DNA of 33,329 bases from a virus: the IMG/VR virus record IMGVR_UViG_3300043409_001504, positions 1 through 33,329 of that record; one strand, given 5' to 3'. A model generated the notes under the pieces. It saw only the letters and a program-made list of their open reading frames with translations. It was not told the DNA's origin and ran no database searches. Below are positions 1 to 6,000 of this stretch, in pieces. Numbering within the stretch: the first letter of the stretch is position 1; the number at the start of each line of letters is the position of its first letter. The position numbers and the translations under genes are program-made.

Positions 1-77
1 TTGGAGCTGGAAGTTGAAACTTCAACTTCATCACTTTGCTGTACTTTAGTTCCAGCTTGACTTTTACTATTTTGCAT
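1..77 (-). CDS. Partial attC-encoded leader ORF (MQNS type)
   Basis: An ATG at 77-75 opens 25 codons that run off the left edge, starting MQNSKSQAGT and ending in a Ser/Thr-rich stretch. The same start context (CAAATGCAAAATAGTAA) and similar residues recur in the attC-like sites at 2764 and 5351. It lies in the apical part of the leftmost attC-like site and reads away from the cassette at 168. Whether it is fused to or coupled with a gene further left cannot be seen. Confidence 0.4.
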   Translation of the reverse strand, partial: MQNSKSQAGTKVQQSDEVEVSTSSS

Positions 78-169
78 TTGAATAAATTTTAAACTTTTAA
101 TTATTAATTTGGCTTCGGTTGTCGGCAGACGGAATACTAATCCCCCAACAACGCCAAGCCTTTTTCGTT
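1..169. repeat. attC-like site 1 (right half only)
   Basis: Only the apical part and the right arm (142-169, core ACAACGCCAAGCC then TTTTTCGTT) are in the window. The left arm lies beyond base 1. The right arm pairs almost perfectly with the left arm of site 8 at 5254-5279, not with any nearer left arm. Confidence 0.65.
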
Positions 170-722
170 AGCTGTGATGCGTTGTAGCACCTTGTAACTT
201 TAAGAAACATTGACGAATAACTTTTGCATCCCACAAAGCATTGTGTTTTTGACTGCCTTCTGACATATCTGCAAATGCTTCACGACTAATATCAGCATCA
301 ATACCTTTTGCGTAAAATAAAGTGCAAATATCAAAGGGAATATAATAGACATTTTTAGGGATATTAAAAGCGTGTCCAAAAATTTGATTGAATAACACCC
401 AATCGTAAGAAAGGCAATCAGACCATATTTCAACTTCGCCAAATTGTTCCAACCATTGTGTTAAAAAACCTTTTAGATTAGAAGTATCGCATTTTACAGA
501 AATATTAATACCTTTTGTATGTTGCATATTTTCTCTTGAAGTAAGAGTTAAATTATCAATTACATTTGTTTGCAACCATTCATCAATTTGCGACTTATCA
601 TAATCGGTAAGCTCTGCATAAAAAGTTTGACCAGTTTCGGCAATTAAGCCAATAGAAATAAGAGTTGTATTTTGGTGTAAACCTGTAAACTCTGTATCAA
701 AGAAAATTTTTGTTTTTGACAT
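168..722 (-). CDS. DEDDh-type 3'-5' exonuclease (Rv2179c/oligoribonuclease-like), cassette 1
   Basis: This 184-residue protein has the three motifs of DnaQ-fold exonucleases. FFDTEFTGL near the N-terminus (Asp9 and Glu11) is Exo[13 protein letters not shown] in the middle is ExoII, and [12 protein letters not shown] near residue 160 (His and Asp) is ExoIII of the DEDDh class. Such enzymes remove nucleotides from 3' ends using two metal ions; RNA or DNA preference cannot be told from sequence. Length and the FFDTEFT start resemble the Rv2179c-like 3'-5' exoribonuclease group. The last codons (His-His-Ser) and the TAA stop are supplied by the cassette-terminal repeat at 168-180. It is the only gene of cassette 1. 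The leader-like ORF of site 2 ends 17 nt upstream of its ATG. Confidence 0.85.
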
Positions 723-739
723 TTTTTATATTTTAATTA

Positions 740-820
740 TTAAGAAATATACCCTACTAGATGCATCACAGCTAACATGGGGTTTTGTGCAAGTTGGGCA
801 GACGGATTAAGCCTCAACAT
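740..820 (-). CDS. Possible attC-encoded leader ORF of site 2 (26 aa)
   Basis: An ATG in the apical region reads through the left arm of site 2 in the same frame as the other leaders, giving ...AQNPMLAV across the arm and R box, and stops 17 nt before the exonuclease start. A degenerate remnant (QAGTKAQQ) of the MQNS-type leader lies upstream in another frame. Alone this would be ignored; it is listed because the pattern recurs in sites 3, 4, 5, 7 and 8. Confidence 0.3.
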   Translation of the reverse strand: MLRLNPSAQLAQNPMLAVMHLVGYIS

Positions 821-963
821 TTGTAATACTGTTGTGCTTTAGTTCCAGCTTGACGGAACGCTAATCGTCCATAAAATATATTCTCAACATTTGTTTTTCA
901 ATTTAACTTTTGTAATCGGCAGAAGGAACTCGAAATCCCAACCTGCACAAAGCCCTGTTCGTT
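774..963. repeat. attC-like site 2
   Basis: The left arm 774-798 (AACATGGGGTTTTGTGCAAG, then TTGGG) and right arm 937-963 form an imperfect inverted repeat. The common core is GGG-TTTGTGCA-GTTGGG, with one T/C and one A/G difference at fixed positions that recur in other sites. The outer spacer is 3 nt on the left and 5 nt on the right. The apical part of about 138 nt holds AGCTTGACGG and leader-like sequence shared with site 1. Confidence 0.75.
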
Positions 964-972
964 AGCTGCCAT

Positions 973-1230
973 TTACCGACAACTGCAACCTTGAAAGAAG
1001 TCGTCAACAGACATTTCATTACCATCAGCAAATGAGTTCTTTTCAGTATCCATAAACTTGCCTAATTGCGTTCTTATTTCGTACTCCGTTTTGACTTCAA
1101 TATTTTGCTTGTTTAAGTATTCTTTAAATTCATCTTTACATTCGTAACAGATATAACCTATACCACCACCAACATAAGTATCACACATTATGTTTTCGCA
1201 GCTTTTTCTACTGCAAGACATTACACCCAT
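973..1230 (-). CDS. Small Cys-rich, probably zinc-binding protein, cassette 2
   Basis: The 85-residue reading starts MGVMSCSRKSC. Cysteines are spaced as in a zinc ribbon or knuckle: C-x4-C-x4-C in the first 20 residues, then Cys-Tyr-Glu-Cys about 14 residues later, followed by an acidic and charged tail ending in CSCR. The open frame extends 14 codons further to an ATG at 1272 that is part of the attC R box. I prefer 1230 because the leader ORF of site 3 stops 4 nt before it and because homologous small proteins of this type, as I recall them, begin with the MGVM-type motif. Function is unknown; a structural zinc site is the only supported statement. Confidence 0.65.
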   Translation of the reverse strand: MGVMSCSRKSCENIMCDTYVGGGIGYICYECKDEFKEYLNKQNIEVKTEYEIRTQLGKFMDTEKNSFADGNEMSVDDFFQGCSCR

Positions 1231-1234
1231 AATT

Positions 1235-1333
1235 TTAAAGTTTGCGTCTCGACAAAAAACGGCAGCTAACATTGGGTTTTATGCAAGTTGGGCTTGACGG
1301 AAGTACAATCAACTTTTGTACAAATCCAAGCAT
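1235..1333 (-). CDS. attC-encoded leader ORF of site 3 (32 aa)
   Basis: The ORF starts in the apical loop (MLGFVQKLIV), crosses the left arm as SSPTCIKPNVSC and ends at a TAA (1235-1237) just 4 nt before the ATG of the Cys-rich gene. The spacing would permit translational coupling. The arm-encoded part (Ser-Ser-...-Lys-Pro-Asn-Val) closely matches the leader of site 5. Expression is unproven. Confidence 0.4.
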   Translation of the reverse strand: MLGFVQKLIVLPSSPTCIKPNVSCRFLSRRKL

Positions 1334-1456
1334 CAGTCCCAGCTTGACGTTACCTATTTAGCTTTAGTTCTTTATCTTAACATTTGATTAATAATTTATC
1401 TTTTGTTCCGAGCTTGACGTTGGCTAATTCCAAACCTGCATAAAGCCCTGTACGTT
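1268..1456. repeat. attC-like site 3
   Basis: Left arm 1268-1293 (AACATTGGGTTTTATGCAAG...) pairs with right arm 1430-1456 (...CTGCATAAAGCCCTGTACGTT). GGG-TTTATGCA-GTT-GG is shared, with the same T/C and A/G mismatches as in site 2. The apical part of about 136 nt holds two copies of AGCTTGACGTT. Confidence 0.75.
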
Positions 1457-4984: not shown

Positions 4985-5033
4985 TTTATATTTATTAAAT
5001 TGTTAGTAATCCGAGAAAGGACAGCCTGACAAT

Positions 5034-5351
5034 TTAAGCCTTTTGGAATGCTTGTGCATTTTTAAGGTCGTTAATTCTCATAATTAAAACACGTTGATAG
5101 GTAAGCATTGCACTGTGTTGTAAATGCAGTAATTCAAATTGAAATAACCCAACTTTTACAACAAAACCATCGCTTGAAATAGCTTTGTTTAAAGCAACAA
5201 TTTTTTCGCCTAATTCTTCATTTTCTACAATCACCCAATTAAGCCCAGCAGCCAACATAGGTTTTGGCGTTATTGGGGCTGACGTAGTTTCAATCGGCTG
5301 TTGTAACTCTGTTGTGCTGTTGTCTAAGCTGGACGGATTACTATTTTGCAT
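5034..5351 (-). CDS. Cassette 7 gene fused in frame to an attC-encoded leader
   Basis: The first 36 or so residues (MQNSNPSSLDNS ... TPKPMLAAG) are encoded by attC-like site 8, including its left arm and R box. The cassette-specific part follows directly (LNWVIVENEELGEK...), with no ATG of its own before a methionine two-thirds of the way along. This core of about 69 residues is helical, with FQFELLHLQHSAMLTYQRVL and RINDLKN segments of a kind seen in small phage proteins; its function is unknown. A GTG within the core (VIVENEE) could serve as a native start. Translation from the attC leader is the simplest reading of the sequence. Confidence 0.6.
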   Translation of the reverse strand: MQNSNPSSLDNSTTELQQPIETTSAPITPKPMLAAGLNWVIVENEELGEKIVALNKAISSDGFVVKVGLFQFELLHLQHSAMLTYQRVLIMRINDLKNAQAFQKA

Positions 5352-5441
5352 TTGTATTTTATTTAACTTTTGAATAATTATTTAGCTTTTGCTCCATCGT
5401 GACGTACTTCGCCATCACACCTGCACAAAGCCCTGTTTGTT
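5254..5441. repeat. attC-like site 8 (hybrid arms)
   Basis: Left arm 5254-5279 (AACATAGGTTTTGGCGTTAT...) and right arm (to 5441, ...CCTGCACAAAGCCCTGTTTGTT) do not match each other well. The left arm is the near-perfect partner of site 1's right arm (TTGGCGTT-TTGGGG), and the right arm is of the site 2 type (CCTGCACAAAGCCCTG). The apical loop carries the MQNS leader start at 5351. The site therefore looks like a recombinant. Confidence 0.7.
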
Positions 5442-5446
5442 GTACG

Positions 5447-5608
5447 CTATTTTGTGGAGACGCCCAAAAACTCATAGCATTGCTTTTGGACTTCTTCTTT
5501 ACCACCTCGTTTATCTAATTCAGATTGACGAATGAATAAGTTTACAACCAGTTTTTTATCTTCAACAGGTTTGCGACCAGCAGGGCTTTTTTTTATTTGC
5601 TTTGCCAT
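5447..5608 (-). CDS. Small basic DNA-binding-like protein, cassette 8 gene 2
   Basis: The 53-residue reading is MAKQIKKSPAGRKPVEDKKL, then a strand VVNLFIRQSE and a helix LDKRGGKEEVQKQCYEFLGV. The N-terminal basic AGRKP is AT-hook-like, and a short strand followed by helices is reminiscent of ribbon-helix-helix proteins. The ATG lies two bases after the stop of the upstream gene (TAA-TA-ATG). The stop (TAG, 5449-5447) falls inside the cassette-start repeat. Function beyond likely nucleic-acid binding is unknown. Confidence 0.6.
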   Translation of the reverse strand: MAKQIKKSPAGRKPVEDKKLVVNLFIRQSELDKRGGKEEVQKQCYEFLGVSTK

Positions 5609-5610
5609 TA

Positions 5611-5841
5611 TTAGTGTGTTTTAATTGTAATGTAATTATCACCTTCTTTGCCTGAGCAAAGAATGAAACCAGCTTTTTTTAAAGCATAACGATTTTTAAT
5701 ATTACTTTCAATTTTTACATCAAAAGTTCTGCCATCGCCTAAATTTTCAGCTTTACAATCAAAACCATTAGATTTTAAAATAGAACTTACTTGAGATGCT
5801 GTTCTTTTACCAAAATTATTACTGTTGTTTACCTTTGTCAT
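5611..5841 (-). CDS. Hypothetical 76-aa protein, cassette 8 gene 1
   Basis: MTKVNNSNNFGKRTASQVSS starts a small, basic, alpha/beta protein with a C-terminal strand-rich part (ALKKAGFILCSGKEGDNYITIKTH). Unlike most cassette genes it has an exact TATATTTG promoter box 25-32 nt upstream, so it can be transcribed independently. It is followed by the basic 53-aa gene in the same cassette. No family is recognised. Confidence 0.65.
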   Translation of the reverse strand: MTKVNNSNNFGKRTASQVSSILKSNGFDCKAENLGDGRTFDVKIESNIKNRYALKKAGFILCSGKEGDNYITIKTH

Positions 5842-5865
5842 TTTGTTTATTGTTTAATTACTATG

Positions 5866-5873
5866 CAAATATA
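5866..5873 (-). promoter_or_regulatory. Bacteroidota promoter -7 box
   Basis: On the minus strand this is TATATTTG followed by C, the exact consensus, 25 nt upstream of the ATG at 5841. It would transcribe both genes of cassette 8 and possibly read on through site 8. Confidence 0.65.
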
Positions 5874-5963
5874 CAACCTTTATTTTAATTTCCAAATAAT
5901 TTTATTAAAATTTAATTATTTATTTTTAGACAGTTTGTAAAGTGCTGAATATCAAATAAAAAC

Positions 5964-6000
5964 AGCGTACAACAATGTAGCTGCCATTTGCGACAGCCCC
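5964..6000. repeat. attC-like half-site 9 at the array/phage junction
   Basis: AGCGTACAAC (5964-5973) is the perfect complement of the cassette 8 start (5439-5448), and AACAATGTAGCTGCC... continues like a left arm ending in GCCCC. No matching right arm or CGTT follows; instead a minus-strand gene ends at 6000. The array is truncated or interrupted here. Confidence 0.6.

Follow-up and report, generated by a model that had tools for sequence, protein, structure and literature searches.

The stretch of DNA analysed here, called the window below, is the 33,329-base IMG/VR virus record IMGVR_UViG_3300043409_001504. Its bases 1-5973 hold an array of eight gene cassettes separated by large palindromic sites that resemble the attC sites of integrons, and the remainder is a tailed-phage genome. 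An earlier sequence-only reading had described the region as an integron-like array joined to a Bacteroidota tailed phage, and this description was borne out. The phage block encodes a terminase, a portal protein, a head morphogenesis protein, a tape measure protein and a helicase, together with an endolysin and a primase-like protein.

The cassettes are delimited by GTT/AAC borders, and all of their genes, like the sites between them, lie on the minus strand. The contig begins inside an attC-like site (1-169) whose GTT border lies at 167-169 and whose arm ends CGCCAAGCCTTTTTCGTT. Cassette 1 (167-776) carries a gene (168-722) for an exonuclease of the Rv2179c-like/RNase-T type (Pfam PF16473, E 3e-13; phrog_2259), cassette 2 (961-1270) a gene of phrog_22735 (973-1272) that starts at the site border (ATG-TT), cassette 3 (1454-2110) two small genes (1533-1838 and 1819-2037), and cassette 4 (2190-2671) the gene of a MIKANDLRIGN protein (2203-2625; phrog_10066). 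Three genes fill cassette 5 (2852-3740), namely 2923-3159, which encodes a DUF5053 protein (PF16476), 3119-3328 and 3330-3593. The 155-residue product of cassette 6 (3842-4377; gene 3867-4334) looks cysteine-protease-like by eye only and is without a Pfam or PHROG match. Cassette 7 (4498-5256) contains a gene at 4511-4873, where, over 4511-4980, an in-frame TGA was noticed by eye shortly after the likely start, reflecting a later start, an error or a broken gene; a crAss001_48-related open reading frame (5034-5351) begins inside the site that follows. Cassette 8 (5439-5973) holds two genes (5447-5608 and 5611-5841) and a 17-nt inverted repeat, and beyond it the distal end of the array (5971-5996) consists of AAC and a remnant resembling a cassette start, with no full site. 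The seven full sites lie at 774-963 (site 1, 190 bp), 1268-1456 (site 2, 189 bp), 2108-2192 (site 3, a short form of 85 bp), 2669-2854 (site 4, 186 bp), 3738-3844 (site 5, 107 bp, with a 2-nt length difference between its arms), 4375-4500 (site 6, 126 bp) and 5254-5441 (site 7, 188 bp). The arms of site 7 come from two different stems, as though two sites had recombined within their conserved centres. The phage backbone (7357-33111) comprises helicase, nuclease, primase-like, terminase, portal, head, tail and endolysin genes; the window proteins at 18380-19546 and 24808-26913 gave no PHROG match.

The start of each cassette is complementary to its own end, as the sequence-only reading had claimed for all eight. 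When the first ten bases are compared with the reverse complement of the last ten, ten positions are equal in cassettes 1-5 and 8 (14 bp altogether in cassette 1), nine in cassette 6 and eight in cassette 7. The same property characterizes the wider site family described below, in which 205 of 279 distinct cassettes, the window included, show exact end complementarity of at least 8 nt (73%), compared with 4.5% of 20,000 random start/end pairs; the percentages are the same for 316 cassettes when copies are counted. In the viral set the fraction is 92/149, compared with 1.8% for random pairs. None of the eight window cassettes has the GTTRRRY R box of classical integrons. The start box of the 279 distinct cassettes follows GTTRNNNGY instead, with R at position 4 in 277, G at position 8 in 265 and Y at position 9 in 249, and viral boxes are looser (147, 98 and 114 of 149, respectively).

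On the gene strand, most window sites run AAC-G-some 4 nt-GGC, centre, ACC-NAT-GTT, forming palindromes of 85-190 bp. The site finder used throughout demands AACG..TGTT and replaced two looser finders swamped by chance matches; it accepts five of the seven full window sites (3738-3844 and 5254-5441 fail), and three of these five have an asymmetric spacer of 5 vs 3 nt. Folding of the gene strand as DNA gave z scores against shuffled sequences of -3.2, -0.3, -2.6, -2.5, -4.9, -1.7 and +0.3 for sites 1-7. A search pattern derived from the window, AACATNNGGTTTKR N(140-170) MAAGCCY N(4-5) CGTT, matched three window sites, none in 100 shuffles, and 15 stretches in viral contigs. In 98 pattern-found sites from other loci, Watson-Crick pairing over the first 11 stem positions outside the searched letters amounts to 80-91% at nine positions, 58% at one and 4% at one, the last being A.C in 82/98 sites; the fixed mismatches noted by the sequence-only reading in the inter-cassette repeats are thus a feature of the family. 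In a swap test on the 98 sites, 7.7 of ten stem positions beyond the searched letters pair with their own partner, compared with 5.4 with a stranger's (best of three offsets). No extra-helical bulge was seen in the site family, fixed mispairs being present instead, and Rfam at gathering and lax thresholds returned no attC-like family.

Two candidate signals were set aside. The leader-like pattern CAAATGCAAAATAGTAA occurs in 16 viral contigs, and its matches are regarded as chance because the final finder detects no site in any of these contigs. No claim is made for a Bacteroidetes promoter within the site: TAnnTTTG was found forward in 41 and reverse in 8 of 156 sites (about 15 expected), and the full two-box form in 2/156. 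In some phage arrays (window sites 2669-2854 and 5254-5441; contigs L031, L036 and L042) start codons lie inside the site, with a frame, judged by eye, that crosses the border (AKPNV, NxMLA); in window site 4 this ATG frame continues into the next cassette. The site in phage arrays may therefore supply translation signals or N-terminal tails.

The site family also occurs in bacterial genomes, where the search pattern found at least 119 matches. By title, nearly all of the matches listed belong to Bacteroidota (many Chitinophagaceae, and also Cytophagales, Sphingobacteriales and Flavobacterium), the exceptions being single Leptolyngbyaceae, Planococcus, Bacillota, Phycisphaerales and Ignavibacteria records and two titled "bacterium". 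In an even draw of Bacteroidota the strict pattern occurred in 5/296 genomes, including two known beforehand (G001 and G011), and the backward pattern in none.

Bacterial arrays are headed by a tyrosine recombinase. In ten of the 12 regions having both, it lies 0.6-1.2 kb from the nearest site and is co-directional with the cassettes; two further fetched regions, L201 and L208, have a recombinase and no site. When attI was located by seeking the complement of the first cassette's end, the crossover fell 102-265 nt beyond the stop codon of the recombinase in seven regions (L189, L191, L192, L196, L203, L205 and L206), five of which carry a motif close to GCGTATATTTATGA/GTT (here and below the slash marks the border). 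In L193 only 6 nt matched, and L195 and both copies in L207 gave none. At L207:14843-19363 the recombinase and a neighbouring site are present in two copies with identical proteins near the contig end, which may be a real duplication or an assembly effect.

Judged by its protein sequence, this recombinase family is not IntI. The TIGR02249 integron-integrase model matches tyrosine recombinases in 24/24 array genomes, and its cut-off is reached in 0/24; a match alone says little because 14 control genomes match too. In a single-sequence search the closest solved structure is VchIntIA (2a3v, E 1e-29), and the aligned halves are 21 residues apart in the array recombinase vs 61 in 2a3v at the insertion. 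This insertion is described as specific to integron integrases, essential for function and not fully conserved in its subgroup (PMC8138268). With the alignment used as a profile, an archaeal XerC-like protein scores slightly above 2a3v, and a predicted structure (mean predicted local distance difference test score 70.7; N-terminal 100 residues poor) retrieves 2a3v first and then XerA. A quick tree of 68 recombinases, rooted on Xer, groups the 12 bacterial array enzymes with three other bacterial ones in one clade (98) and 34 of the 36 site-linked viral enzymes in another (90); IntI forms a separate clade (98). The enzymes of two bacterial regions, L202 and L204, pair within the bacterial clade.

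Whole platforms are found on viral contigs as well. The scan for the recombinase family kept the best 80 of 453 relatives, and the resulting loci include near-copies (e.g., L229/L230, L245-L247). Among recombinase loci with at least 2.5 kb upstream, 37/44 have an upstream site in the expected orientation and three in the other, and sites downstream of the recombinase occur in 2/72 loci. In 748 kb of these loci the finder detected 120 sites. Shuffled copies yielded 1 and reversed copies 3, and no site was detected in a further 335 kb from other viral loci (155 kb chance-pattern loci and 180 kb relatives of the window helicase). For 48 of 49 viral loci with an upstream site, the last cassette's own end could be identified (7-9 nt). 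In 27/49 it lies 72-110 nt before the recombinase match, often adjoining AAC/TACTATATGTA or AAC/TATTATATATA, with some clades differing; in 21 loci the distance is 391-4,089 nt, perhaps through a missed site. The viral order is cassettes, attI and recombinase on one strand, and the bacterial order mostly recombinase, attI and cassettes. Relative to the site, gene orientation differs between the two groups: the longest open reading frame is on the AACG..TGTT strand in 88/90 distinct viral cassettes vs 7/206 host cassettes. The 90 leave out the window and viral contig L041 (93/101 with both); the window cassette genes all have the viral polarity. Contig L041 carries a seven-site array beside phage-like genes and is perhaps a prophage next to a bacterial array.

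A terminase or portal match (two families tried) was obtained for 13 of 40 site-bearing viral records (39 with a recombinase and L389), many of which are short. L264 is distantly related to the window phage (helicase 48%); it carries, in this order, a methyltransferase-like gene, one site, a small cassette, the attI-like junction AAC/ACTTATATGTA and the recombinase, about 4 kb from the helicase. Another relative, L017 (30-61% identity among the matches listed), has no sites in 18 kb. The isolated Polaribacter phage Leef_1 (L308:3838-5762 and 5989-6852) has two such sites upstream of its integrase; the cassette ends match imperfectly, and in the tree its recombinase forms a long branch. The sequence-only reading had placed the array directly beside a phage block and considered cassettes carried by a phage unusual. 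Their presence on a phage stands, and the picture has widened, with other viral contigs encoding the whole platform and the system occurring in many Bacteroidota genera.

Comparison of relatives indicates that cassettes were gained and lost as units. In ten of the 12 viral locus pairs compared, some of which share a member, homology begins at most 2 nt from the attI AAC (in L280 this AAC was placed by alignment only). Starting at the attI junction, L270 and L271 agree in every base for 1,229 bp, and their cassettes beyond the junction are different except for one 81-nt stretch. A plasmid pair, NZ_CP092416 (Flagellimonas) and NZ_CP022516 (Arenibacter), shows 100% identity over at least 5,989 bp starting at AAC/TACTGGATATCC, and the preceding cassette differs. 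The same holds for window cassette 6, which shares 91% DNA identity over 547 nt with a cassette of viral contig L389: identity drops at each border, the neighbours are different, and the two end boxes have changed together (GTTAGCAGT...ACTGCTAAC against GTTATGCGT...ACGCATAAC). Furthermore, window site 2 (1268-1456) shares 86% identity over 221 nt with a site of viral contig L036 that belongs to a different gene. The question of whether such segments are fixed intergenic regions or exchangeable units, which the sequence-only reading had left to homologous loci, is thus answered in favour of exchange, both in relatives and for cassette 6.

Among the cargo of viral cassettes, DNA methyltransferases stand out. 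Among 86 viral cassette proteins (89 found less three left out), Pfam identified N6/N4 methylases (seven), C5 methylases (three) and DUF4326 proteins (three), with single matches to Dam, D12, MT-A70, an EcoRI-type methyltransferase, an antirepressor, Mom, an exonuclease and a PAPS reductase; at least 57 of the 86 are without a match. The window exonuclease has 166 viral relatives. Sites are present in 8 of the best 80 when flanks of up to 4 kb are included, so the gene is common in phages and in some cases forms a cassette. A tblastn search of the window cassette proteins against the loci collected early in the analysis gave no match.

Plasmid-borne erm(F), ere(D) and blaOXA-347 lie in cassettes of this site family, and on the Myroides plasmid NZ_CP102755 the three cassettes directly follow one another. 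Resistance cassettes, or resistance genes beside sites, lie at L303:4622-5914, L395:1550-5290, L399:4029-6515 and L398:2697-4993. The erm(F) unit (query 722/723 to 2015, i.e., site and gene up to AAC) recurs with both borders in 7/18 other matching plasmid records, three times in one piece, three times as two pieces in order and once, in B. fragilis NZ_CP054002, as two separated pieces. The genes tet(X2), tet(X5) and estT adjoin sites of this family; own matching ends of tet(X2) and tet(X5) were not found. On pHH1107 (L397:5052-7073), TnpF, a recombinase with 44% identity to the array recombinase of L191 across 61% of the latter, is encoded immediately upstream of tet(X3), and no site was found in that region.

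Taken together, these data make it very probable that the window array forms the cassette part of an integron-like platform for gene capture that is carried by the phage and uses a non-IntI tyrosine recombinase. Each cassette consists of [GTTR... - gene(s) - ...YAAC] and has a single attC-like palindrome. The recombinase would recognise the palindrome re-formed from the two ends of the cassette, either folded or in a circular cassette, and recombine it with a single attI, at which cassettes would be inserted or removed. On the strand where cassettes end in AAC, attI is close to AAC/TNNTATATRTA in many phages and to AAC/TCATAAATATACGC in hosts. In phages the genes run toward attI with the recombinase behind it, some start codons lying inside the site, so that cassettes and recombinase could be read as one operon. 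The cargo would provide interchangeable accessory functions for the phage, in relatives DNA methyltransferases above all. The cassette units, their matching ends, the location of attI, the link with the recombinase and the exchange borders in relatives are shown by the sequences; the recombination chemistry, the circular intermediates and the choice of strand are what we infer. As for the window itself, the polarity of its sites implies that attI and the recombinase should lie beyond base 1; its own recombinase would then sit to the left, out of view because the contig ends inside a site.

A number of observations weigh against such a platform. Recombination in the system is deduced from sequence comparison and was not observed, and the 33,329 bases of the window contain neither a Phage_integrase match nor an attI. 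Two of the seven window sites fold no better than shuffled sequence, one of them (5254-5441) with non-matching arms; by folding, the other check named in the sequence-only reading, not every site is a strong hairpin. The recombinase is not directly behind the identified cassette end in 22/49 viral site loci, and in the bacterial regions L202 and L204, which have sites, it is on the other strand, as in phages. Seven of the nine cassettes of L041 have host polarity, many site-bearing viral contigs are fragments, the L264 site passes the finder and fails the box filter, and 13 viral loci found as relatives of the window-phage helicase have no sites.

Other explanations have to be set against the platform. 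One is that the array is a fragment of a classical IntI integron, i.e., a cluster of attC sites lacking integron-integrases (CALIN), whose ordinary cassettes were caught by the phage and moved by a host IntI. Phage CALINs have indeed been published, among them one from a Polaribacter phage (PMC9892861), Bacteroidota appear in lists of bacteria with detected integrons (PMC8618304, PMC9668308), and VchIntIA 2a3v is the closest solved structure both by single-sequence search and by fold. We nevertheless find this explanation very unlikely, since no window R box is GTTRRRY, the TIGR02249 cut-off is reached in none of the 24 array genomes, and the array recombinase is short at the insertion (21 vs 61 residues) and outside the IntI clade. 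The integron cassette logic seen by the sequence-only reading persists in the matching ends and the unit exchange, although not in the form of a classical integron.

Slightly less credit still is due to the proposal that the sites are fixed regulatory palindromes, such as terminators or leader units, between ordinary phage genes, and that the recombinase of relatives is a lysogeny integrase. The authors of Leef_1 read its integrase as a sign of a possible temperate lifestyle (PMC8776804), and ATG starts inside sites, seen by eye, fit a translational role. This proposal is contradicted by the cassette exchange in relatives, with its borders at AAC/GTT; in addition, cassette starts match their own ends far more often than those of others, and the same sites flank non-phage genes in bacteria. 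The least probable explanation, to which we give hardly any weight, is an assembly artefact joining a bacterial array to a phage contig. The contig does begin inside a repeat-like site, and L041 illustrates that viral records can hold host-like arrays, but gene polarity in the window follows the viral rather than the host pattern (88/90 distinct cassettes, window and L041 aside, compared with 7/206), and several of its cargo genes match phage families.

Beyond the window, it seems reasonably likely that a second integron class, one without IntI, is common to Bacteroidota and their phages, that phages encode a mirror-image version of their own, read toward attI with attC supplying start codons, and use it to swap anti-restriction and other accessory genes, and that the bacterial version is the source of erm(F), ere(D), blaOXA-347 and probably tet(X). 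Searches for integrons depend on models of IntI and attC, and a system missed by such models would explain accessory-gene swapping in Bacteroidota phages. It would also explain how several Bacteroidota resistance genes became mobile, and would provide an independent case for asking which parts of the integron design are needed.

Integrons of the IntI type have an attI beside a tyrosine recombinase, tandem cassettes in one direction, palindromic attC sites with an asymmetric spacer and a GTT crossover. The platform described here resembles them in the single attI adjoining a tyrosine recombinase in bacterial, viral and plasmid loci, in the tandem one-direction cassettes, in the palindromes, of which some have an asymmetric spacer, in the start complementary to its own end and in GTT at the crossover. 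The system works like an integron and yet fails the defining IntI test: its recombinase falls outside the IntI clade, with 21 residues at a position where 61 are present in VchIntIA. Unlike IntI integrons, it uses a recombinase without the IntI insertion, has the R box GTTRNNNGY in the pattern-found set and often long sites (182-193 bp) with a conserved centre, and its recombinase is co-directional with the cassettes in 10/12 bacterial regions. The attC features described for classical sites are the unpaired central spacer (UCS), extrahelical bases (EHB) and the variable terminal structure (VTS) (PMC2727003); in the present family no extra-helical base was seen and fixed A.C/G.T mispairs are found.

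The paper on IntegronFinder 2.0 mentions one complete integron from a Bacteroidetes genome (PMC9024848). A 2025 study that applied the program to Chryseobacterium with ermF, tetX, aadS and OXA-347 reported no integrons (PMC12382657). Our search of full-text literature, with preprints and most subscription journals outside its scope, found no non-IntI cassette system of Bacteroidota or their phages, which is weak evidence of novelty. The phage integrons and CALINs of Qi et al. 2023 (PMC9892861) are similar in having cassettes on phage genomes and methyltransferase cargo, but are reported with IntI and canonical R boxes, whereas here the recombinase is non-IntI and the genes are inverted relative to the site. 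The resistance regions of Bacteroidota plasmids with erm(F) and tet(X) have the site family in common with the phage arrays, their cargo being resistance rather than phage accessory genes. Finally, the enzymes are like the XerA-like simple tyrosine recombinases, with NF040815 the best NCBIfam match for all four recombinases tested, but differ from that family in that all four score under its 220-bit cut-off (188-216) and are linked to cassette arrays.

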